Origin: a virus
Virus record (IMG/VR): IMGVR_UViG_3300044295_000213
Span: 1-43,489 of that record
DNA: 43,489 nucleotides
Direction: 5' to 3' (one strand)
The translations under genes were made by a program, and so were the position numbers. Positions 7,597 to 43,489 of this stretch are shown piece by piece; the stretch's first letter is position 1; each line of letters starts with the position of its first letter. The notes beneath the pieces were generated by a model, which saw only the letters and a program-made list of their open reading frames with translations, was not told the origin of the DNA and did no database searches.

Positions 7597-7799
7597 CAGG
7601 ACAGGACCTACTAAACTTTTATAAAACCATCTTCGTTATGAAAAAGCATCATTCATTTAACATAAATGAAATTGAAAACATGTATCCGTATGAACGTAAC
7701 GTATATTATGACTTTATTCGTGGAGAACTACAAGAAAAGGCACAATCAAGTCAGAATGAAAAACATGTATTCACAGACCCTAAAGACGTTCCATGGTAG
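7584..7799 (+). CDS. 51: gp51-like extension reached by -1 frameshift from gp26-like gene
   Basis: From T TTT TTT at 7578-7584, a -1 slip continues as TAT CTT TGT CTA ACA... and stays open for about 70 codons to the TAG at 7797. The extension contains DLLNFYKTIFVMKK, then FNINEIENMYPYERNVYYDF. This resembles gp51 of T4-like phages and downstream tail-chaperone products, with an 'ExxxhxPWE/YER' motif (from memory). The only ATG in the extension (7638) has no ribosome site, so independent translation is unlikely. It overlaps the next gene by 7 bases. The layout mirrors the lambda G/GT arrangement placed before the tape-measure gene. Confidence 0.65.
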   Translation, partial: YLCLTGQDLLNFYKTIFVMKKHHSFNINEIENMYPYERNVYYDFIRGELQEKAQSSQNEKHVFTDPKDVPW

Positions 7800-10700
7800 A
7801 TAAATCAACAGCTAGCAAACTTTCAGAAGCATTACAATCCACTGTTAAATCAGAGGCATCTTCTCCAAAAACCTCAGGGGCTCCTACGTGGAGAGATTGG
7901 AGAGATACCACTAATAATATGACTTTTGGTCAAAGATCAAAAGGGGCTCTATACGAGACTATTGAAAGAGAGACTTTGGGTAATATGGGCTCATTTGGAG
8001 AAGCGATCCAAATGTGGCGGACTGGTCAGTTTGGTTTAGGAGAAGCATTCAAAAGAGTAGGATTAGATATCCTCAAAAGAGAGACCCTTGGGAACATGGG
8101 TATCTTTGGAGAACTATTGAATGCTCATTATAAACTAGATGGTATTAAGGATATCATTGATAAGTCTGCTATTGAGCCAAATAGAAAGTTTAAGGCCTTT
8201 GAAGATTTGGTACAGGGTCTTAAAGATGTTGATGAACATGCTCAAAAAATGAGTAGAGAATTATTAAAGAATGATAAACTATTAGCAAAGAATGTTGAGA
8301 AGGCTGTTAAGGAATTAGACAGCAGGTCTGAAAAAAGATTTGATACGCTGTCTAAGAAAATAGCAACTAATTTTATGAAGTTATCAGAAAAGATAACCGA
8401 AGCTGCTAAGGTAAAACAATCTCCCACTTTCTCAGGGGGAGAAAGAACCAATTCAACTAAAAAGGTCAAATCATCTATTAAAGCTCCAATGTCACCATCT
8501 GAGGCATTTGGAAAAGCATCAACATATAAAAAAGCAGAATTACCCTCAATTCTTAGTAAACTGCCAGGAGGGGCAATCCCTGCTATTGCAGGTGGCATTG
8601 GTATTCTAGGCAGTCTTGCTGGATTACTTACGATAGGTTCTGGTAATTCAACCATTAACGACGCATTAGGCATTACTCCTGATATGACTCAGGAAGAAAT
8701 ATCAAAGCGTAAGAAATGGTTTAACTCTATGAGAAAAGACCCTAAAATAGGATATGACGGGGCCTTAAAGAAAGCTCAAGAGAAGTTCAAAAATGGCAAT
8801 CCTCAAAATGATACAATAGTTACTCCTAAAGCTCCTAGTAAGCTAAAAGGATCATCGGGAGAAGATCGTCTCCAAGAGGAAGGTGATATTAAGAAGATTG
8901 AAGATTGGAACGTCTATTCATCTCAACATATCAACATTGAAGCCCAAAAGATACTTACGTTAAAAGCATCTAGCATTATATTAGATACTCCGACATTGAA
9001 AATGCCTGATTCATTTTGGGATCAGGTTTCTGAAACTGCTAGTAAACTTATGGTTGCTGATGCCGAAGATACAGGAGAGTCGGGAGAAGGTGACGGACAA
9101 GCAGTAAAAAATAGAAGAAAGCAAAAGGGTCTGAGTCCAATTCAACAACGGATGAAAATGGGCCAAGGGCTTTCTGTTCCTTATACGTCTAATTATGGAA
9201 TACCTTCAACAACACATACTCCGTTTACCCCTTCTAATCCTAATGTTCCCTATGATGGATGGGCAATTGATCCGTCTGGGCAACCTTCTGGCCAACCGCA
9301 AGGTTCCCCAGGAGGTACGGGCGGAAACGTGCCTTATTCTTCTAATTACGGAAGTCCTGAAAGACGGGCGGATGGTCCTAAAGAAAAAACTATTGACGCA
9401 TCTGGCGTTGGAAAATTATATGCTCCTGAGGGGCAAAACACAGATGACCTAAGTGATATCGATGCAAATCAATTAAAGTTTGTCCGAGCTATTGCCCAAT
9501 CAGAAACGAATTGGGATAGAAAAGAAGCATACACTGATAGAAACAATGTTCCTAATGACGTTTGGGATGGCAAAAGACTTATTAAAAAAGGTAATGCTAA
9601 TGTAAGAAATGCTATGGCTCGTGGTATGTCTGAGGAAGAGGCTAAAGCCGAATATGGCGATTATGGCCATTTCCAGATGAACAGACATGATGTGAATGAG
9701 GCGATTAAGAAATATGGCCTTGATCCTAACATAGCCAAGCATCTTTATGGGGGAGGGGCAGGAGGAAACTCGACTCCTCAGGAACAAACTAGGGCAATGC
9801 ATCATTATTTGTCTAAGCGTTACCCTGAGATATATGAACGGTTAAAGACTGGCGATCCTAAGGCTTATGAAGATGCCAGAAATGCTATGTCTGGTATGTA
9901 TTTTGGTTTAAGAAATCATTGGGAAAGAAGTGATGTTCAAGCTGCATTAGGCGGTAAAGTTACCCCTGGAATGTTAGGAAATGGGGCACCATCTCTTGGA
10001 AAATCGTCTTCTATGTCTGATCTGAATAATGCTCAGAAATATCTTGAAGGCCAATTAGCAAAAGCTCCCGATGGTGATAAAGAAGCTATTCAAAAGCAGC
10101 TTGATCAAATCAAAGAATTACAAACTAAAATGGCGTCTAACCCTACGCCTCAAACTGCAACGGAATCTGCGGTAAAGGTTTCAAACCAGCAACAAGTAAC
10201 GAGACCAGATTATGTAAAAGGCAAATTGACAGTTGAAGATAAAGTTTATGATTATGGGACAGGGGCTCCAGGCGCATATAATAGAGATATGCATAGAGGT
10301 TCTATTCCATATGGTTCTTTCCAAATAGAATCTGGATTGCATTCTTCTAATAACCCGCGATTTAACAATAATTCGTTTGGGGTTAAGAATATGTATGACC
10401 CAAAATGGGGCACGGATAGGCAAGGTATATTATTACACTCTGCAAGAGATTTAGACAAACTTTATAGTGCAGGGTGTCTTGCAGTTAGAAAAGACCAATG
10501 GCCAGCTTTTAAAGCTCATATGTTAGATATGATGAAAAGAAATGGCGGTAAGTTGACATTGAATGTTAATCCAGATGGATCAGCGTCAATTGTTCCTAGT
10601 AACGCAACGGTTAAAACAACAACTACTGATAACTTTGTTGAACAGCAAAAAGATAAAGATGCTCTATTGGGAAAAACAAATGTTACACCTGATAATAAGC

Positions 10701-11050
10701 AAGCTGACTCTAATTCTCCATCAAATCAACAACAACCCCCACCTAATCAAAACAGGCCAGCCGATAAAATTGTTCCCCCGTCTCAGTCTTCTGATACGAG
10801 TAAGGAAGGTCCTAAGGTTCCTCCTGCTCCCCCTGCTCAGAATGATAACAGCGGCCAACAGCAAGCTAACGAAGCGGCTGCTAGATCAGGTCCTAATCCC
10901 AATGCAACTGATAATAAGACCAGTAGCAGCAATGAAGAACCTGAACTTAAGATGCCATCGACTCAGCACAACCCCGATAAACATAAAGGGGGTCCTGCCG
11001 ATAAATCCAGAGGCGAAAATGAGGAAGACGATTTCTCCCTCAACATATAA
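7793..11050 (+). CDS. Tape-measure/hub protein with transglycosylase and L,D-transpeptidase-like domains
   Basis: A 1085-residue protein. Residues 1-215 are helical with repeated ETLGNMGxFGE segments and a coiled coil. About 258-284 is hydrophobic and Gly-rich, a likely membrane-inserting segment. About 540-720 resembles a lytic transglycosylase/goose-lysozyme core (RAIAQSETNW with a candidate catalytic Glu; GDYGHFQMNRHDV). About 805-922 carries an L,D-transpeptidase (YkuD)-like motif: LLHSARDLDKLYSAGCLAV, with His and the S-x-GC cysteine. The tail from 930 is Pro/Gln/Asn-rich. Following the frameshifted gp26/51 pair, it holds the tape-measure position. Roles in measuring the tail and opening the cell wall during injection are inferred. 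Confidence 0.7.
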   Translation: MVDKSTASKLSEALQSTVKSEASSPKTSGAPTWRDWRDTTNNMTFGQRSKGALYETIERETLGNMGSFGEAIQMWRTGQFGLGEAFKRVGLDILKRETLGNMGIFGELLNAHYKLDGIKDIIDKSAIEPNRKFKAFEDLVQGLKDVDEHAQKMSRELLKNDKLLAKNVEKAVKELDSRSEKRFDTLSKKIATNFMKLSEKITEAAKVKQSPTFSGGERTNSTKKVKSSIKAPMSPSEAFGKASTYKKAELPSILSKLPGGAIPAIAGGIGILGSLAGLLTIGSGNSTINDALGITPDMTQEEISKRKKWFNSMRKDPKIGYDGALKKAQEKFKNGNPQNDTIVTPKAPSKLKGSSGEDRLQEEGDIKKIEDWNVYSSQHINIEAQKILTLKASSIILDTPTLKMPDSFWDQVSETASKLMVADAEDTGESGEGDGQAVKNRRKQKGLSPIQQRMKMGQGLSVPYTSNYGIPSTTHTPFTPSNPNVPYDGWAIDPSGQPSGQPQGSPGGTGGNVPYSSNYGSPERRADGPKEKTIDASGVGKLYAPEGQNTDDLSDIDANQLKFVRAIAQSETNWDRKEAYTDRNNVPNDVWDGKRLIKKGNANVRNAMARGMSEEEAKAEYGDYGHFQMNRHDVNEAIKKYGLDPNIAKHLYGGGAGGNSTPQEQTRAMHHYLSKRYPEIYERLKTGDPKAYEDARNAMSGMYFGLRNHWERSDVQAALGGKVTPGMLGNGAPSLGKSSSMSDLNNAQKYLEGQLAKAPDGDKEAIQKQLDQIKELQTKMASNPTPQTATESAVKVSNQQQVTRPDYVKGKLTVEDKVYDYGTGAPGAYNRDMHRGSIPYGSFQIESGLHSSNNPRFNNNSFGVKNMYDPKWGTDRQGILLHSARDLDKLYSAGCLAVRKDQWPAFKAHMLDMMKRNGGKLTLNVNPDGSASIVPSNATVKTTTTDNFVEQQKDKDALLGKTNVTPDNKQADSNSPSNQQQPPPNQNRPADKIVPPSQSSDTSKEGPKVPPAPPAQNDNSGQQQANEAAARSGPNPNATDNKTSSSNEEPELKMPSTQHNPDKHKGGPADKSRGENEEDDFSLNI

Positions 11051-17675: not shown

Positions 17676-17905
17676 CCTTTATATTTGATTCCAATGTAAC
17701 TACCAACAAATGCTCCTAATGCAACTGGAATGATTAAGGCATGGTTGGCTGTATAGTTAATAATGATTATAGCTGATATCAGGTAATAGGCTCCTGAACA
17801 CAAACCACCTTTCAGAGCACTATCTTGCCCAATTGCTTTCACGAAATGAACATAAAAGAAATCGGTTATCATTACTCCAAAAAATGCTATTAAATATTCT
17901 ATCAT
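17666..17905 (-). CDS. Small integral membrane protein
   Basis: A 79-residue protein with two or three hydrophobic segments (about res 2-18, 38-52 and 55-75), joined by HFVKAIGQDSALKGGLCSGA. Ends in the charged tail KYKGWK. The layout is typical of small phage membrane proteins found in T4-like genomes; a holin is one possibility but nothing proves it. Overlaps the RNA ligase stop by 4 bases and the phosphoesterase start by 10. Confidence 0.65.
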   Translation of the reverse strand: MIEYLIAFFGVMITDFFYVHFVKAIGQDSALKGGLCSGAYYLISAIIIINYTANHALIIPVALGAFVGSYIGIKYKGWK

Positions 17906-19170
17906 TCATTCATCACTTTGAAACTCCAAACCGCATTACCCCATATATGACGTGTCTTATCGATCTTGGCTTGGCTTGTTAACGACTTCTTAACTACCTC
18001 TAACACTTCCCCCTCAATATGCTCTACTCCCTTATCCCAACATGAGAATATGATTGAGGCATAGCAACCAGGGATATCCTTACCAAAACCAAGAGCGAAG
18101 TCTTTACGACTCATTGATTTAGCCTTGGGATAGTAATGGTGTATGAGAAGCTTTTTCGTGGCATCCAGACCGTTTACAAACGAGGTTCGATAGGCATCTA
18201 GCCTGTCTCTGTCCTCAGGGTCTAGGAAGCCTAGAACATCGTCAACCTTATCCTCTAGAATAAGCTCAACAACTCGCTTCTCATGTAAGAGGTTGTCCTT
18301 TGCTCTATGAATGGCAACATACCATAGAGTCTTAACTTTGACCATATGTCCATTATCAAACCTGACAACAACACCCTCTGTGTCAGAAGTGTTCTCTATT
18401 TTCTTTATAATGTCGTCTTCAAGAAATGAGCTTGATCGATAAACGTCATTGACATGAGGAATATTCCAATACTTGGCATTGATAAGCATTTGGAAATATG
18501 GAAGGTATTCCCCCGTAATCTGATTGCGAATAGCAGTCAGAATAAGGTTCGGTTCCTTATGATGTATGACAATTCGAGTCTCAGGAGAAACATACTCAAA
18601 GATTGGCATTAGGCCTTGGGCGTGGCACAACTCCATAAACTCTTTATACCAAGGCTTATTGGCAATGAAAACTTCGGCTTCCATTGACACATCTGTAATG
18701 CCTGCCTTTGTGGCTAAGCGGAGATGTAATGCCCCTCGGGTTTCATCGGGTAGGAACAATGGAGTTACCATTGATCCGTCAAGCTTCTCCATAATCACAT
18801 GAGGAGTTGAGAAGTCCACATTATCTAATAAGGTCTCTTCTCTCTCATTGAGATTGAAAAACTTGTGATAGGCTCTTCTGATAAGATTGCCGTCATCATT
18901 AAAGATCAGACCACGACATTCTCTCCTGACAGCGGAATTAAACAAGTCTTGCTCAGGAGTAATTGCATGAACATACATTCCGTCAGGAGTTGTATTAGCC
19001 CATACAAACGGCTTATCTGACATTGCTACTTTAGGAAATGTTGAGGAGCTAGCAAGGTTGTAATTGATAACCTTGTAACCTTCCTTTTCGGTTACTCGAA
19101 AATCATCAGAACCTTTAATCGCTTCTAATACAGGTTCAATTCTTGTTATCTGAGGAAACTTGTAAAACAT
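17902..19170 (-). CDS. rnlA: T4 Rnl1-type RNA ligase
   Basis: A 422-residue ATP-dependent RNA ligase (T4 Rnl1: 374). Nucleotidyltransferase motifs are in order: motif I MEKLDGSM with adenylated Lys129; upstream RRECRGLIF and YHKFFNLNE; motif III FEYVSPETRIVI; motif IV EGVVVRF; motif V MVKVKTLWY. The C-terminal 150 residues form the Rnl1-specific helical domain. In T4, Rnl1 with Pnk reseals host tRNA cut by anticodon nucleases. Kinase and phosphatase partners are encoded at 15712 and 20177. High confidence in family. Confidence 0.9.
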   Translation of the reverse strand: MFYKFPQITRIEPVLEAIKGSDDFRVTEKEGYKVINYNLASSSTFPKVAMSDKPFVWANTTPDGMYVHAITPEQDLFNSAVRRECRGLIFNDDGNLIRRAYHKFFNLNEREETLLDNVDFSTPHVIMEKLDGSMVTPLFLPDETRGALHLRLATKAGITDVSMEAEVFIANKPWYKEFMELCHAQGLMPIFEYVSPETRIVIHHKEPNLILTAIRNQITGEYLPYFQMLINAKYWNIPHVNDVYRSSSFLEDDIIKKIENTSDTEGVVVRFDNGHMVKVKTLWYVAIHRAKDNLLHEKRVVELILEDKVDDVLGFLDPEDRDRLDAYRTSFVNGLDATKKLLIHHYYPKAKSMSRKDFALGFGKDIPGCYASIIFSCWDKGVEHIEGEVLEVVKKSLTSQAKIDKTRHIWGNAVWSFKVMNE

Positions 19171-19640: not shown

Positions 19641-19716
19641 TGGCACGGGAGAAGGGATTCGAACCCCTGATCGCGGTTTTGGAGACCGCTGCTTTAGTCC
19701 ACTAAGCTACACCCGT
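19641..19716 (-). tRNA. tRNA-Trp (CCA)
   Basis: A 76-base cloverleaf with encoded CCA. The anticodon stem GCGGT/ACCGC encloses CTCCAAA, anticodon CCA. The acceptor stem has one T-T mismatch at pair 6, otherwise paired; T loop TTCGAAT. It stands alone, apart from the cluster of five at 28.3-29.3 kb. Confidence 0.9.
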
Positions 19717-28321: not shown

Positions 28322-28397
28322 TGGCGATCCCAGCAGGATTCGAACCTGCGACCCTCTGCTTAGAAGGCAGATGCTCTATCCACTGAGCTATGGGACC
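28322..28397 (-). tRNA. tRNA-Arg (UCU)
   Basis: A 76-base cloverleaf with encoded CCA. The anticodon stem TCTGC/GCAGA encloses CTTCTAA, anticodon TCT, reading AGA/AGG. Acceptor GGTCCCA/TGGGATC. The first 10 bases overlap the end of the preceding gene, whose TAG stop lies inside the tRNA. Confidence 0.95.
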
Positions 28398-28612
28398 GTT
28401 TCTTTTTTGACGAGCTTTTTTAACTCGTCAATTTCGGCATTCAATGAGTCAAGGCATGTCTCATAGCCTATCATCACTGGATCAGTTTTCGGATCGAAAT
28501 CAGGCTCTAGAATACACTCACGATAGGGCCTATTATTTTCCAGATAGGTTATAGCAGCGTCAAGCTGAGCTATCCGAATTAAGGCAGCATTCACTCCAGG
28601 CCTGATTTTCAT
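28388..28612 (-). CDS. Hypothetical small helical protein
   Basis: A 74-residue protein: NAALIRIAQLDAAITYLENN, MIGYETCLDSLNAEIDELKK. Two amphipathic helices; unknown. Its last codons (GTC CCA TAG) are the 5' end of tRNA-Arg, so RNase P cutting to make the tRNA would destroy the stop codon on the mRNA. Confidence 0.6.
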   Translation of the reverse strand: MKIRPGVNAALIRIAQLDAAITYLENNRPYRECILEPDFDPKTDPVMIGYETCLDSLNAEIDELKKLVKKETVP

Positions 28613-28614
28613 TG

Positions 28615-28908
28615 TTATTTCTCTAGGGCTGCTAGGATCATGGCAATCTTGCTTTCGACTGATTGACTGTTATTGAACTTCTGTAAAGAAGTAACAACGT
28701 CAATTATCAAATGTTTCATGGGAATGTTGGCGGCGGGTTCCCCATTATTATTGAATAGTTGTTCTAAGTCCACGTCCTGAATTATACGAAAAACCTTAGG
28801 GGCATTTATTTTGATATTACCTAATCTAACCTCACTCCCAGATATTATGTATAAATCACGTTTTACGTCCCTGACGATTCCTTGATCAATTTCCCAGGGC
28901 TTTGTCAT
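28615..28908 (-). CDS. Hypothetical protein
   Basis: A 97-residue protein: IVRDVKRDLYIISGSEVRLG followed by NIKINAPKVFRIIQDVDLEQ; a C-terminal helix QSVESKIAMILAALEK. Family not recognised. Lies between tRNA-Arg and tRNA-Lys on the same strand, so co-transcribed with the tRNA array. Confidence 0.6.
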   Translation of the reverse strand: MTKPWEIDQGIVRDVKRDLYIISGSEVRLGNIKINAPKVFRIIQDVDLEQLFNNNGEPAANIPMKHLIIDVVTSLQKFNNSQSVESKIAMILAALEK

Positions 28909-28937
28909 TTATAATCCCTTCCGCTGCCTTTTGTGTT

Positions 28938-29013
28938 TGGTAGACTCGATGGGAATCGAACCCATAACCTTCCGATTAAAAGTCGGACGCTCTAACCGTT
29001 GAGCTACGAGTCC
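28938..29013 (-). tRNA. tRNA-Lys (UUU)
   Basis: A 76-base cloverleaf with encoded CCA. The anticodon stem TCCGA/TCGGA encloses CTTTTAA, anticodon TTT. Acceptor GGACTCG/CGAGTCT with a G-U first pair. Confidence 0.95.
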
Positions 29014-29015
29014 AT

Positions 29016-29092
29016 TGGTAGGCACAACAGGACTTGAACCTGTAACCAGTCCGTTATGAGCGAACGGCTCTAACCAATTGAGCTATGTGCCT
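29016..29092 (-). tRNA. tRNA with CAU anticodon (Met or Ile2)
   Basis: A 77-base cloverleaf, CCA encoded, acceptor AGGCACA/TGTGCCT. The anticodon loop CTCATAA is shared by elongator tRNA-Met and lysidine-modified tRNA-Ile2. The D loop looks Met-like and the T arm Ile2-like. Not an initiator (first pair A-T). Two bases separate it from tRNA-Lys. Confidence 0.9.
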
Positions 29093-29094
29093 AT

Positions 29095-29181
29095 TGGTGC
29101 TCCTAGTAGGACTCGAACCTACACGCCCTTTCGGGCACTGGAATCTAAATCCAGCGCGTCTACCAATTCCGCCATAAGAGC
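29095..29181 (-). tRNA. tRNA-Leu (UAG)
   Basis: An 87-base class II tRNA with a long variable arm (TGCCCGAAAGGGCGT) and encoded CCA. The stem CTGGA/TCCAG encloses TTTAGAT, anticodon TAG, reading CUA and CUG. Confidence 0.95.
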
Positions 29182-29187
29182 TATATG

Positions 29188-29272
29188 TGGTGCTCACAGC
29201 AGGACTCGAACCTGCACTCCCGAAGGAAGGGGATTTTAAGTCCCCCGCGTCTACCGATTCCGCCATGCGAGC
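29188..29272 (-). tRNA. tRNA-Leu (UAA)
   Basis: An 85-base class II tRNA, encoded CCA, variable arm TTCCTTCGGGAGT. The stem GGGGA/TCCCC encloses CTTAAAA, anticodon TAA, reading UUA and UUG. First tRNA of the array. Confidence 0.95.
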
Positions 29273-38759: not shown

Positions 38760-38852
38760 TTATTTGTCATCAGGGGGGAGAACCTTGGCATATAACACCA
38801 AGGCTCCCACCACAATAAGGACCATAACAATACTGCCTATTATATCACTCAT
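38760..38852 (-). CDS. 30-residue single-pass membrane peptide
   Basis: MSDIIGSIVMVLIVVGALVL followed by YAKVLPPDDK: one membrane helix with a short charged tail. The start overlaps the end of the RNA ligase gene (TGATGAGTGA), so it may be translated by coupling; ribosome site weak. Function unknown. Confidence 0.5.
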   Translation of the reverse strand: MSDIIGSIVMVLIVVGALVLYAKVLPPDDK

Positions 38853-39951
38853 CATATTTCAGTAGATAATCTGGATTAATAACCTTGAAATTGAAGTCCG
38901 ATTTACCGTGTTTGAATACAACACCTTCTCTGTATCCAGACCCGTTCATCATCGGACCTTTAGATGCAGCAATAAGGCTCTGCATCAACTCTTGGCGATT
39001 GGTTGGGTTTTTTAGGAACGTGGAAAGCTTTTGAGTTGATACTATCGGAGCATGATTGATATCGATCTTAAGAAATGACTTGATACCTGACACTAAGGCC
39101 TGTCTTTCAGCGGGGGTTAGATACCGCTTCAAGGTGATATCATACACATTAAAGAGATAGAAATCAAGCTCTGTTAGCTTTTCTTTGTTCTTTTGAACCC
39201 CAGGACCAACTAATTCTCCCTGGAATGCTAACTGAGCCCCTGAGGGGGTATGAAGCTGTAACAGAACATCAATAATATTTTTAGCTCTAGCACACTTCCA
39301 AAAGGCGTTTGTATCGTCTTCTGTGATGTTATAGTTGCGGGAACAAACGCCAATCTCGGGCTCAGACAAATCAGGATGGGAACGACAATAGACAGTCATT
39401 GAAGAACCGTCTAGCTTTGTTGTTATCTCAAAATCATCATCTAATAAAGGCTCAATATGCTTTAGAAGGTTTTGGGCTCTTTCAGAATCAGTCTTGGGAA
39501 TGAATGACGGGAAATTACCTTTGACCTTACCAGCTAACTGAGCGGGGATTGGCTGTTCATACTTTTTGATACCAAGATAAGCTGTTAGGTCTGCCCCTTC
39601 CTCTTGTAATAATGGGGCATCATCCCCCGCATTTAGAAGTTTAGCTATTTCAGGAACAGGAAGGGCTAACCCCTGAGAAACCTGCCCCTTAAGCTTTATT
39701 GTCTTGATCCTAAAGCCTTCTCCTAGGTTCTCAGTATTCTTGTAGCAACCCTTCCGAAGAAACTCAAACTGAGGTATTACGGGAAGGAATGAATCAATCT
39801 CAAAGTAAACAACCAAATCGCCAACTTTAAAATTATTACTCTTTTGTGTAACCAATTCCCATCCATCCACCCGTATCATTTCTATGTTATCTGCCCCTGG
39901 AATAGGCTCAACAGATTCAATACGGCGAATAGAAGCTAACTTTCTTTCCAT
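38845..39951 (-). CDS. DRB0094-type (Rnl5) RNA ligase
   Basis: A 368-residue RNA ligase of the Deinococcus DRB0094 (Rnl5) family. The N-terminal OB domain includes LASIRRIESVEPIPGADNIE, WELVTQKSNNFKVGDLVVYF and GFRIKTIKLKGQVSQGLALP. The ligase domain has motif I TTKLDGSSMTVY (Lys179), FQGELVGPGVQKNK and GVVFKH. Known members seal 3'-OH RNA to 5'-phosphate, in nicked duplexes. Start at 39951 with TTGGAG upstream; the TTG frame to 39963 would put the start on that site. Second RNA ligase of the window. Confidence 0.9.
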   Translation of the reverse strand: MERKLASIRRIESVEPIPGADNIEMIRVDGWELVTQKSNNFKVGDLVVYFEIDSFLPVIPQFEFLRKGCYKNTENLGEGFRIKTIKLKGQVSQGLALPVPEIAKLLNAGDDAPLLQEEGADLTAYLGIKKYEQPIPAQLAGKVKGNFPSFIPKTDSERAQNLLKHIEPLLDDDFEITTKLDGSSMTVYCRSHPDLSEPEIGVCSRNYNITEDDTNAFWKCARAKNIIDVLLQLHTPSGAQLAFQGELVGPGVQKNKEKLTELDFYLFNVYDITLKRYLTPAERQALVSGIKSFLKIDINHAPIVSTQKLSTFLKNPTNRQELMQSLIAASKGPMMNGSGYREGVVFKHGKSDFNFKVINPDYLLKYDE

Positions 39952-39963
39952 AGTATACTCCAA

Positions 39964-40492: not shown

Positions 40493-40527
40493 AATTAAAA
40501 GGTGTAGGAGATTAACCCCCTACACCT
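40493..40527 (-). terminator. Terminator overlapping the stop of 40512 gene
   Basis: AGGTGTAGG and CCTACACCT pair in a 9 bp stem that includes the final codons of the gene; TTTTAATT follows on the minus strand. Confidence 0.7.
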
Positions 40528-40802
40528 ATATTGTCTTTCTCTTTTAACGAACGAAAGAATGCAAATCCTTCAAACGTTAGCCACTCATTACCATACTCGG
40601 CTAACAAATCATGGGCTCCCTTATGTCCCTTGGCCTGGATTAGGTTTAGGACATAGACAGGTTTAATTAAACACTTAACCCCACCTATCCTTTCTCTTGC
40701 GTGGTCATACGATTCAGCAGTGACCATCTGAGCCTTAGGTTCTGTAAAGCATACATACAGAGCATAAGGCCAGCCTGTAGGGTGTCTTAACTGTATTCTC
40801 AT
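40512..40802 (-). CDS. Hypothetical protein
   Basis: A 96-residue basic protein: HPTGWPYALYVCFTEPKAQM, SYDHARERIGGVKCLIKPVY, NEWLTFEGFAFFRSLKEKDN. Not recognised. Follows the 30-residue basic peptide on the same strand and ends in a terminator. Confidence 0.6.
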   Translation of the reverse strand: MRIQLRHPTGWPYALYVCFTEPKAQMVTAESYDHARERIGGVKCLIKPVYVLNLIQAKGHKGAHDLLAEYGNEWLTFEGFAFFRSLKEKDNIGVGG

Positions 40803-40815
40803 AGTACCTCAACTC

Positions 40816-40908
40816 TTACTTTAGTTTCCTAGCCCGTCTTTGGCGGCGTTTTTTACTGCCAATTTTTCGTCGGCCCGTCCTAGGCCTATGTTTATGAGGA
40901 TGGGGCAT
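40816..40908 (-). CDS. 30-residue Arg/Lys-rich peptide
   Basis: MPHPHKHRPRTGRRKIGSKK followed by RRQRRARKLK: about half Arg/Lys plus three His. The ATG overlaps the previous stop as TAATG, so it is probably translated by coupling; it is not in any frame of a larger gene. Arg-rich peptides of this size can bind RNA (compare lambda N-type boxes) or act in the head. The GC-rich Arg codons (CGA, CGC, AGG) are unusual here. Confidence 0.55.
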   Translation of the reverse strand: MPHPHKHRPRTGRRKIGSKKRRQRRARKLK

Positions 40909-41351
40909 TACTTATTATCTAACTCCATTAACTTAGCCTTATCCAAAACCGTGGTATTCAGTCTAAACCTTTTAGCTATAGCCCTTAACTCATCATCAAA
41001 CCTAGCAAATCCCTTATCAGAAGAGTTGTCATGAGCGTCCTGTAAGGCAGTCAAAAAATCAATGTTACGGCGATCTAAAACAGGATGGAGAGAAAACTTA
41101 TCATTACCCTTGTTAGTCTCTTTTAGGAGACGAACCATATCCTTTACCAGACCACCATTCGTAAACTTGTTACCAATTATCCACTTCTTACAATAGGCCT
41201 TTCCTAGAAGTAAACCTACCGCACACATATTTCCTGTATCTTCATTAAGATACGTGCATCCTCCACTTGGAGAAGCCCCAAAGGCCTTCTGTCTCTTAAC
41301 ACCCTTAACAAGGGCGTCAAAGATTTCCTGTTTCGTCGTCACACTTGTCAT
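40908..41351 (-). CDS. Conserved phage hypothetical protein
   Basis: A 147-residue basic protein: EIFDALVKGVKRQKAFGASP, GGCTYLNEDTGNMCAVGLLL, then HPVLDRRNIDFLTALQDAHD followed by FARFDDELRAIAKRF. The 'C.Y....G..CavG.ll' plus 'L..LQ.aHD' combination is frequent in phage proteins of unknown function (from memory). TAATG coupled to the basic peptide. Confidence 0.7.
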   Translation of the reverse strand: MTSVTTKQEIFDALVKGVKRQKAFGASPSGGCTYLNEDTGNMCAVGLLLGKAYCKKWIIGNKFTNGGLVKDMVRLLKETNKGNDKFSLHPVLDRRNIDFLTALQDAHDNSSDKGFARFDDELRAIAKRFRLNTTVLDKAKLMELDNK

Positions 41352-41591: not shown

Positions 41592-42113
41592 CTAGCCATG
41601 CCAACGAATCGTTGCATCATGTTCTATGGTCACTTTCATATCTCCCAGTGCAGTGTGCAGGGTAGCTAGTGTAGGCAGCTTGGTCCCCATAGGGACGAAG
41701 AACGAAAACTCATCAAGATTATACATGCAATGAACCTTCACGTCATTAGCGTTTATGATATTCTGTGAAATTCGTATGGTATGGGTTAAATGAGGATAGG
41801 TTAGCCAACGAAACACATCGGTATATGGTTTAGAATTATATGTGTCTCTCTTGTGTTGTCTACTCTCATTTTGAAAAGTCCAGTGAAACATATTATCATG
41901 AGATTTTGGTTTAGACTTTTCTTTCGGCTTCCGTTGGATATGATTCTTTTTCATCCAATCATAAGCTTCGATTATCCTTCTTAGCTTATCAGTTGCCTCA
42001 GGGGAATGATTAATATCAGGATGATAAAGCTTTGCTAGCTTTCTGAAAGATGAAGTTATATCTTCAAGAGTTTTAGTATCATCAATTTGTAATAAGAGAT
42101 AATATTCTTTCAC
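41592..42113 (-). CDS. J-domain protein
   Basis: A 173-residue protein. Res 3-70 form a J domain: YYLLLQIDDTKTLEDITSSF followed by RKLAKLYHPDINHSPEATDK, with HPD intact. A Lys-rich linker and a beta-rich C-terminal region (VHCMYNLDEFSFFVPMGTKL) follow. It could recruit host DnaK to phage assembly or replication complexes. No zinc finger. Overlaps the GIY-YIG-like gene by 32 bases. Confidence 0.85.
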   Translation of the reverse strand: MKEYYLLLQIDDTKTLEDITSSFRKLAKLYHPDINHSPEATDKLRRIIEAYDWMKKNHIQRKPKEKSKPKSHDNMFHWTFQNESRQHKRDTYNSKPYTDVFRWLTYPHLTHTIRISQNIINANDVKVHCMYNLDEFSFFVPMGTKLPTLATLHTALGDMKVTIEHDATIRWHG

Positions 42114-42510
42114 GGTTTTTATCTAAATGCTTCCTATGGACTCGTGTACCTACAAACGAGTTGTAGTAGCTTGATGATAGGACAACATCATGCATCATTT
42201 GTTCTCTAAGTTCAAGATAATTCATTTCACTTTTAGATTTACACAAATGAATTATTTGACGATAAAATTGAGTTGGTCCTAACTTTTCAAAGTCTTCCTG
42301 TAACTCTTTACAGGAACCATAATAATTTTGCCAGTCGCTTTCGACTCTTGTCTTTTTCTTTTTCTTATTCTTTTGAAAAGTTTTTGACTTATGAAAGTTT
42401 TTCTTACCGATATATTTCATATGATTAGAAAGGTTCGTAATTTGATATACGAACCCTTCGTAGTCTTCTATCTGCTCAGGAGTGAAGGCATAACCTTTGT
42501 AATACCACAT
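42082..42510 (-). CDS. GIY-YIG-like putative endonuclease of T4-like phages
   Basis: A 142-residue basic protein: EGFVYQITNLSNHMKYIGKK followed by NFHKSK fits the 'hVYxITN...kYIGkk' version of the GIY-YIG motif. RVESDWQNYYGSCKELQEDF, then MNYLELREQMMHDVVLSS, YYN follow, with a possible catalytic Glu in YLELREQ. T4-like phages carry similar proteins annotated as endonucleases. Free-standing; not inside another gene. Confidence 0.7.
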   Translation of the reverse strand: MWYYKGYAFTPEQIEDYEGFVYQITNLSNHMKYIGKKNFHKSKTFQKNKKKKKTRVESDWQNYYGSCKELQEDFEKLGPTQFYRQIIHLCKSKSEMNYLELREQMMHDVVLSSSYYNSFVGTRVHRKHLDKNRERILSLITN

Positions 42511-42525
42511 AACAAATATTCAGTA

Positions 42526-43489
42526 TTACGTGTTAGCTGCTGGTTCTGTATTCGCTACAGGGGCAGTATTCGCGTCTGTAATTACTGTGTTGGCATCAAT
42601 ACTAACGTTTGCCTGCACACTAACATCAGCAGTGTTAGCATCCGTTACTGTGTTAGCAACCGTATCAACTACAACTATAGTGTCCGATACTGATGGAGTA
42701 TCTGGCATCACATTGGCGGTTACGTCATTGACGACGGGCGCAGACTCATCTACAGTAGGAGCTACGACAGGTTCAACAGCAGGGGATACGGTAGAATCAC
42801 TTATTACAGAAGAAACATCAGAAACAGGAGTTACTAATGGAACTTGATCCGAAGACGAATTCTGAACGGATGGCTCTGATGGAGATACTACGTCCGCAAC
42901 TGGATCAACTGAAACAGTCGTTGCTTGGTCTAGAACCTGCGGTTGAGGCTGAACAGTTGTGTCCTGACTGTTTGGCAAATCTGTCTGTGGTGTCACATCT
43001 GACACAGTTGATAGGTTCGATAAGTCTGATGACGGCGGCGGCGTCACTGGCTCAACTGGATTCGGGGTCGGCTGATTATCAGGAGAAACTGAATCACTCG
43101 GTAACACATTCACTGCATCAGGCGTTGGAAGCGGCTGAACTGGCTCGGGAGTTGATGGTGCCACTTCTCCAGGAATCACATCAGGAGACACGTCAGGAGA
43201 CACATCAGGAGACGCTTCCCCAGAAGTCACGTTTTCACTAACAACATTACCACTTGTAATAACAGGAGAAACCACTAATGGGTCAGGGACGTTATTTGAA
43301 ACTGGATCAGGCTGAACAGGCTGAACAGGCTCAGGAGTCGGGACTACGTTATCCATTGGCTGAACAGGAGGTTCAACTACTGGATTCGTCTCAGGCTGAA
43401 CCTGAGGAACAGGATCAGGAGTTATTACAGAAACTGGCTCAGGAACAACTGGTGCAGGCTGAGGATCAACCTGAACAGGAGGAGATGAC
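42526..43489 (-). CDS. Pro/Val/Thr/Asp-rich low-complexity protein, 5' end outside window
   Basis: At least 320 residues with no stop to the window edge; the ATG at 43356 is internal. It consists of degenerate P-x-P-V and S-P-D-V-S-P-D-V repeats, no cysteines, few aromatic or basic residues, and a C-terminal VSIDANTVITDANTAPVANT region. DNA repeats underlie it (CAGGAGACAC units near 43183-43210). Likely an extended, acidic, unstructured protein or linker of a virion or surface protein. The antisense ORFs here are shadows of the repeats. Confidence 0.7.
   Translation of the reverse strand, partial: SSPPVQVDPQPAPVVPEPVSVITPDPVPQVQPETNPVVEPPVQPMDNVVPTPEPVQPVQPDPVSNNVPDPLVVSPVITSGNVVSENVTSGEASPDVSPDVSPDVIPGEVAPSTPEPVQPLPTPDAVNVLPSDSVSPDNQPTPNPVEPVTPPPSSDLSNLSTVSDVTPQTDLPNSQDTTVQPQPQVLDQATTVSVDPVADVVSPSEPSVQNSSSDQVPLVTPVSDVSSVISDSTVSPAVEPVVAPTVDESAPVVNDVTANVMPDTPSVSDTIVVVDTVANTVTDANTADVSVQANVSIDANTVITDANTAPVANTEPAANT

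Follow-up and report, generated by a model that had tools for sequence, protein, structure and literature searches.

The Microprotein Gene and Its Genomic Setting

The window, i.e., the whole stretch of DNA that was analysed, is a virus record of 43,489 bases with T4-like genes, including those for head closure, DNA end protector, tail tube, baseplate, single-strand binding protein, two RNA ligases, and PhoH. The nearest relatives found for its head-closure protein are at most 52% identical. On the minus strand, at positions 40816..40908 (stop included), lies a gene recognized as an open reading frame (ORF) and through its relatives, which starts with ATG and encodes a microprotein of 30 aa, MPHPHKHRPRTGRRKIGSKKRRQRRARKLK, with a Lys plus Arg share of exactly 50%. 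Codons 12-22 (40843..40875, minus strand) encode the core GRRKIGSKKRR, delimited by pattern search and relatives, and codons 1-11 (40876..40908, minus strand) encode the N-terminus MPHPHKHRPRT, which lies outside the search pattern. The gene is coupled to its upstream neighbour by a TAATG overlap (40906..40910, minus strand), in which the ATG of the microprotein and the TAA of a 147-aa gene (40908..41351, minus strand) have one base in common. On the other side, 13 nt separate its stop from the next gene (start at 40802, minus strand), which encodes a 96-aa protein with no family in the library search (40512..40802) and whose ATG is preceded by GAGG. A GGAG word is found 14 nt before the microprotein ATG, and the gene lacks a good Shine-Dalgarno sequence of its own. 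The first-pass annotation had described a 30-residue peptide, about half Arg/Lys and coupled by TAATG, and this is borne out; its mention of a further ten basic residues was loose, as Lys or Arg occupies seven of the last ten positions.

The composition of this ORF stands out in the window, where it is the most basic among 598 ORFs of at least 20 aa, the runner-up having 35% Lys/Arg. In particular, 20 windows generated by a first-order Markov model contained a mean of 0.1 ORFs with at least 40% Lys/Arg (two ORFs, both in the same window), and none of at least 28 aa with 50%.

The 147-aa protein belongs to phrog_17693 (unknown function; E 3e-12), a family with conserved Cys, Tyr, and Gly together with LQ..HD residues, which occurs as adjacent duplicate copies in Synechococcus phage BUCT-ZZ01 and twice inside a single protein of Pseudomonas phage pf16. 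The microprotein is absent after the distant relatives of the 147-aa protein in three loci (L008, L090, and L091). Further upstream, a gene at 42082..42510 (minus strand) encodes a SegE-like GIY-YIG endonuclease (PF19835, E 6e-36). PHROGs (phrog_447) and many phage records call the SegE-like family 'NAD synthetase', whereas a GIY-YIG SegABCDEFG domain is noted in the phiM12 record; the label 'NAD synthetase' is likely a mislabel that has spread. Other features of the window include a 173-aa phage protein (41592-42113, minus strand) with an N-terminal DnaJ J-domain (PF00226, E 1.6e-12), two RNA ligases assigned to separate families, phrog_968 and phrog_562 (38845-39963 and 17902-19170, minus strand), a 1085-aa ORF (7793-11050, plus strand) with no PHROG match at E 0.001, a 276-aa repetitive protein rich in Pro, Val, Ser, and Asp (42526-43356, minus strand) with no family and with open frames on the opposite strand, and six tRNA genes (Arg, Lys, Met, two Leu, and Trp; 28322-29272 and 19641-19716, minus strand).

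A Nameless Family Widespread in Uncultured Phages

Ten members of the family had no match in Pfam or NCBIfam at E up to 10, a result to which the HMMER filters may contribute, and none was significant in PHROGs, where two members had weak matches to phrog_7519 (E 0.7 and 1.1 in a search at E up to 10). The family matched none of the PDB chains, the family profile giving 0 matches, and the strings KIGSKKRR, RRKIGSKKRR, and GRRKIGSKK were not found in the open-licence literature. A tblastn search of a phages collection with the window peptide at E 10 gave no match, a search made uninformative by low-complexity filtering; a plain protein search of 50 records, not chosen as carriers, gave none either, and none of 21 named phage records (T4, HTVC008M, cyanophages, Melnitz, and others) had the family. 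A weak match in Caulobacter phage Cr30 (E 0.02) reads RKIGSCKRIPISQ and falls outside the family.

Searches through the neighbouring genes (the 147-aa, RNA ligase, and 96-aa proteins) found no close viral relatives, and a scan was therefore made with a degenerate DNA pattern encoding the core GRRKIGSKKRR. The pattern occurred in at least 118 stretches of viral contigs, as compared with 0 viral matches for the same residues in permuted order. The 118 viral matches listed are nearly all stand-alone ORFs of about 27-35 aa and comprise 56 distinct peptides (e.g., MPHPHKNRPRKGRRKIGSKKRRSRNMRKK), among which the identical 11-aa core is written by 59 different codings; as the relatives were retrieved with the core pattern, the identity of the core is partly by construction. 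In a second scan, GRRKIGSK was found in 278 stretches, 153 of which tblastn confirmed as relatives. Together, the viral loci number 198, with contigs found by both scans counted twice, and encode 96 distinct peptides. Most (126 of 198) form a window-like subgroup A with the common N-terminus M[PA]HPHKNRPR[KT], which lies outside the search pattern. Subgroup B (M[GA]YPKKH) accounts for 25 loci and subgroup C ([MV][GS]S[VI]LKK) for 31, duplicates included and with a GTG start in one peptide; subgroups D and E have 6 loci each, and 4 loci are of other kinds. Subgroup C has the same core as the other subgroups, and one of its members, MSSVLKKKKHKGRRKIGSKKRRNRRRIRLRLRVRK, has most of the C-terminus of subgroup B. 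Large uncultured phage contigs, selected for carrying the family, had one copy each (13 of 13).

Shine-Dalgarno-like words precede 29 of 33 distinct subgroup A peptides and, among the matches listed, 67 of 118 viral and 103 of 120 cellular ones, compared with 14% of random windows. Loss of the frame or frequent stops in relatives had been named in the first-pass annotation as what would speak against the peptide, and the opposite was found, since the frame is conserved. Translation, which had been argued from the overlap with the preceding stop, is well supported by deep conservation, synonymous changes, tight packing, and the Shine-Dalgarno-like words in relatives. A chance ORF or by-product of composition, which the very small size and the lack of a good Shine-Dalgarno sequence of its own might suggest, is contradicted by the conservation, the many codings, the Markov windows, and the permuted pattern, and its probability is negligible. 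Thus, the microprotein ORF is a gene under protein-level selection, in a family without a name that is widespread in uncultured phages.

Chromosomal Occurrence in SAR11 and Some Planctomycetota

The core pattern is also present in bacterial genomes, in at least 120 stretches; judged by record title, the 120 matches listed include 112 from SAR11 and 6 from Planctomycetota. A 3.3-kb contig of a betaproteobacterial MAG (L328) is probably phage, as a SegE-like gene adjoins its microprotein gene, and a match on an Enterococcus contig is a chance-like open frame of 25 residues. The SAR11 protein is MGYPKKHRGRRKIGSKKRRARKRNKKK. Its identical peptide is encoded at 66 loci by 62 DNA sequences, with 6, 0, and 21 variable columns at the three codon positions, which indicates strong selection on the protein. 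The family profile found a match in 63 of 79 Pelagibacteraceae genomes of unstated completeness (62 at E 1e-4 or less; one match partial, 16 genomes without a match) and in 59 of 117 genomes of the SAR11 order, also of unstated completeness (one match weak and with an internal stop, 58 genomes without a match). Apart from the SAR11 centre, a spread of 349 Pseudomonadota yielded two weak matches and no others. Of 11 alphaproteobacterial matches, 5 read as family, and the other 6 were dropped. In Planctomycetota, the profile had 18 matches in 149 genomes. Fifteen of these read as family, with variants such as MAKPRRRRKIGSKKRRARWKVRNKIT, and two of the 15 carriers (G050 and G055) are ones found earlier; the remaining three (L344, L346, and L348) do not read as family and were dropped.

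The cellular microprotein genes are stand-alone. In the three SAR11 loci that were read, an mnmA-like tRNA-thiolation gene, recognized by eye, adjoins the microprotein gene, and no ribosomal family is among the 25 most-matched families of 54 cellular neighbours. In SAR11 and some Planctomycetota, then, the microprotein is encoded by a conserved chromosomal gene that stands alone. A close chromosomal homologue, as would be looked for in the case of a phage-encoded ribosomal protein, is thus on record in SAR11 and Planctomycetota.

The presence of the gene in cells argues against two of the roles that had been put forward for it, those of an antitermination-type factor and of a DNA-condensing internal head peptide. 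Lambda N-like antiterminators combine an arginine-rich motif with a region that binds NusA or RNA polymerase and are known only from phages. The window peptide is arginine-rich and, at about 30 aa, of a size that recalls them; unlike them, however, it consists of 30 aa only, with no part beyond the basic stretch to bind RNA polymerase or NusA, and the same protein is conserved in SAR11 chromosomes, where the mnmA-like gene adjoins it in the three loci, and in some Planctomycetota. An antiterminator of the lambda N kind is therefore very improbable, and the earlier suggestion is left unsupported.

Gene Order in Phages

Of the 198 viral loci, many of them short, 59 include a SegE-like relative. 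It lies upstream of the microprotein gene on the same strand in 58 of these, which is the order seen in the window, and in 51 loci, with 28 distinct peptides among them, it lies within 1.5 kb. Packing is tight: within 12 nt of the microprotein stop, the next gene begins on the same strand in 20 of 34 distinct loci from subgroup A and its near variants. Among 117 flanking phage proteins, and considering the best 25 of 82 families, phrog_11311 (unknown function) was matched by 8, phrog_447 (SegE-like) by 5, and homing endonucleases by 3-5; head maturation proteases, with 2 of the 117, were the sole head family. An exonuclease relative lies 1.4-3.4 kb downstream of the microprotein in 25 of the 198 loci.

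These surroundings bear on the proposal that the peptide binds or condenses DNA, being nucleoid-associated in cells and an internal head peptide or genome condenser in phages. Its 50% Lys/Arg and the two flanking head maturation proteases would agree with such a role, but condensation needs charge rather than a constrained 11-residue core, the families that most often flank the gene are those of unknown function, SegE-like, and homing endonuclease type, with the exonuclease relative downstream, and the gene is conserved in free-living SAR11. Moreover, an internal head peptide would be sought in the head module and in phages only, and this is a cellular gene. A DNA-condensing peptide is thus unlikely, and for the internal head peptide of the first-pass annotation we find no support.

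Comparison with bS22 and Other Small Ribosomal Proteins

Small, highly basic proteins are known at one site of the ribosome, and the closest known counterparts of the microprotein are among them: bS22, eL41, and mS38, the last with its basic domain, are described as occupying a pocket between helices h27, h44, and h45 of 16S rRNA, where they touch 23S rRNA (PMC10618245, PMC10085706, PMC7005279, PMC6582356). The bS22 of Borrelia, with 61% Lys/Arg, escaped annotation until density for it was observed, and the authors expected more such proteins in other species (PMC10618245). The resemblance of the microprotein to bS22/mS38 (AURKAIP1, COX24; PF08213, COX24_C) lies in a length of about 30 aa (bS22), in a Lys/Arg share of 50-60%, in the ability to escape annotation, and in a hydrophobic residue within the basic core, which is M, V, or I after Lys/Arg in bS22 and part of K-I-G in the family. 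At 30 aa and 50% Lys/Arg, the window peptide falls within the size and composition of bS22 (28-33 aa in solved structures from the PDB; at least 50% Lys/Arg). In contrast, the core of bS22 differs from GRRKIGSKKRR, and the family has no PF08213 match over the cut-off: hmmscan at E<=10 gave none in 10 family members, and PF08213 exceeded its cut-off in 0 of 10 carrier genomes. Separately, bS22-type (PF08213) genes over the Pfam cut-off are found in 8 of the 149 Planctomycetota genomes (L361-L368). These 8 and the 15 genomes with the microprotein family do not overlap, which is not significant, as about 0.8 shared genomes would be expected.

The N-terminus is more informative. With bS22 reference letters taken from the PDB and from Planctomycetota genomes, all 10 actinobacterial and Planctomycetota bS22 sequences start with M[GS]S[VL][IL]K (one with GTG), a beginning that the bS22 of Bacteroidota and Borrelia lacks. 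The window peptide (MPHPHK) lacks it as well, and subgroup C has one of the same kind, M[GS]S[VI]LKK. The signature M[GS]S[VIL][VIL]K was chosen after the sequences had been viewed; elsewhere in the viral loci (L010-L210), none of the 9425 other open frames that begin with ATG and reach 20 aa or more fits it.

Pairwise scores against bS22 discriminate poorly, and M. smegmatis-F. johnsoniae, a true pair, gives a z of 0.4; 7 of 60 tests had p <0.05, with 3 expected, and the best was a Planctomycetota member against F. johnsoniae (z 3.7). Profiles were also used, in shuffle tests of which 10 of 57, dependent on one another, fell below 0.05, with about 3 expected. Three members of subgroup C matched the pooled bS22 profile (p 0.006, 0.010, and 0.001; 1000 shuffles) and, more weakly, the actinobacterial-type profile alone (p 0.009-0.022), with no signal against the Bacteroidota/Borrelia profile (p 0.28-0.54 by the HMM test, 0.67 by hhalign). 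Some Planctomycetota members were marginal against the pooled profile (p 0.015, 0.040, and 0.067), and two gave p 0.008 and 0.007 against the Bacteroidota/Borrelia profile. No signal was found for the window peptide against the three bS22 profiles (p 0.33, 0.36, and 0.56, the first being the pooled one), for the SAR11 peptide against the pooled profile (p 0.35), or for most other members; the z values of subgroup A and the SAR11 peptide by the HMM test lie between -0.1 and 0.7. The single-sequence shuffle test itself gives p 0.004 to 0.46 for true bS22 across lineages and misses some, as with M. smegmatis (p 0.41) and C. acnes (p 0.46) against the Bacteroidota/Borrelia profile.

Profile-profile comparison by hhalign gave a similar picture. 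Its control, actinobacterial/Planctomycetota against Bacteroidota/Borrelia bS22, had a z of 4.3 and beat 120 of 120 permutations. Subgroup C beat 150 of 150 column permutations against pooled bS22 (z 3.1) and 147 of 150 against the actinobacterial type, with no signal against eL41 or THX. Against bS22, subgroup A had a z of 0.6 (p 0.26) and the cellular group one of 0.3, and the whole family gave nothing; no signal beyond composition was found against eL41 in four groups, nor any against THX in the two comparisons made (subgroup C and the whole family). As judged from sequence, phage subgroup C resembles actinobacterial-type bS22 beyond composition, and this signal probably stems from the N-terminus MGSVLKK. 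The window subgroup has neither a bS22-type N-terminus nor an order-specific likeness, and the family is therefore not filed as bS22. Since the chain from bS22 to the family is only one subgroup wide, the wording that it perhaps works like bS22 is preferred to the wording that it is bS22.

Other small ribosomal proteins offer likenesses of a more general kind. eL41/aL41 proteins have 25-37 aa, are highly basic, and sit in the same pocket as bS22 (PMC7005279, PMC10085706), but the family shares no sequence signal with them beyond composition; bTHX (S31) has 27 aa, is basic, and belongs to the small subunit. Phages are also known to carry small ribosomal-type proteins (bS21, bL12, and others), which the family would resemble if its putative ribosomal identity is correct. 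Among these, bS21 is also carried by a SAR11 phage (PMC9723584; phage bS21, PMC6375957), and phage bS21 is described as entering E. coli ribosomes, with ribosome activity falling to about 5% (PMC6375957). The main text of that report makes no mention of bS22, and none of the papers listed by a literature search for bS22 with phage has a title on a phage bS22.

The same comparisons leave room for a peptide that binds rRNA or other RNA in a way that is not of the bS22 type, either as an undescribed ribosomal protein at another site or as a ribosome-assembly or RNA-chaperone peptide of SAR11 and some Planctomycetota that phages have borrowed. The core constrained beyond mere charge, the stand-alone gene in cells, and the main subgroups, which lack an order-specific match to bS22 or eL41, would all suit it, as would the absence of a THX match for the whole family; against it, subgroup C ties the family to actinobacterial-type bS22. 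On balance, we regard such a peptide as somewhat unlikely.

A Putative Ribosomal Role

A constrained basic core around one isoleucine, present both in free-living cells and in phages, points to a structured nucleic-acid target that is common to many hosts, and ribosomal RNA would be the obvious one. RNA binding, which the first-pass annotation had also proposed, is plausible, and a ribosomal role would fit the microprotein better than that of an antiterminator or a head peptide. We thus tentatively favour, at a probability just short of even, the reading of the family as ribosomal-protein-like, 16S rRNA-binding peptides of the bS22/eL41 pocket that phages may load onto host ribosomes.

According to this reading, the microprotein would bind 16S rRNA as a ribosomal-protein-like peptide, most likely where h27, h44, and h45 leave a pocket facing 23S H67/H68, the seat of bS22 in bacteria, mS38 in mitochondria, and eL41 in eukaryotes and archaea. 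In SAR11, it may be a constitutive small-subunit or bridge protein. The housekeeping-like distribution in cells counts in favour of this reading, as does PF08213, which exceeded its cut-off in none of the 117 SAR11-order genomes; the lack of a ribosomal family among the 25 most-matched of the cellular neighbours counts against it. During infection, the phage copy would be loaded onto host ribosomes, either displacing the host copy, as in SAR11, or filling a vacant pocket, and initiation or subunit joining might then be biased towards phage mRNA, or host translation damped. Precedents exist in phage bS21 and in the in vitro data of PMC10085706, in which the statement on '...coli translation in vitro' gives effects by 80% and 65% at 80 uM; thus, a phage peptide at the decoding centre could replace a host copy or fill a vacant pocket. 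That a large overlooked family of phage microproteins seizes host translation through the decoding-centre pocket used elsewhere by bS22, mS38, and eL41 is an appreciable possibility, which we hold with real doubt.

That the family exists is the claim we make most firmly; the ribosomal role that we infer for it is testable. Even if the microprotein is not ribosomal, the family is new and tractable, with a single question to be asked, namely what the target of GRRKIGSKKRR is. If the decoding-centre pocket reading is true, this would be a ribosomal protein very easily overlooked by annotation. If the microprotein is ribosomal, the ribosomes of SAR11 would hold a component that has never been described, and many phages would encode a translation factor that may escape gene callers.
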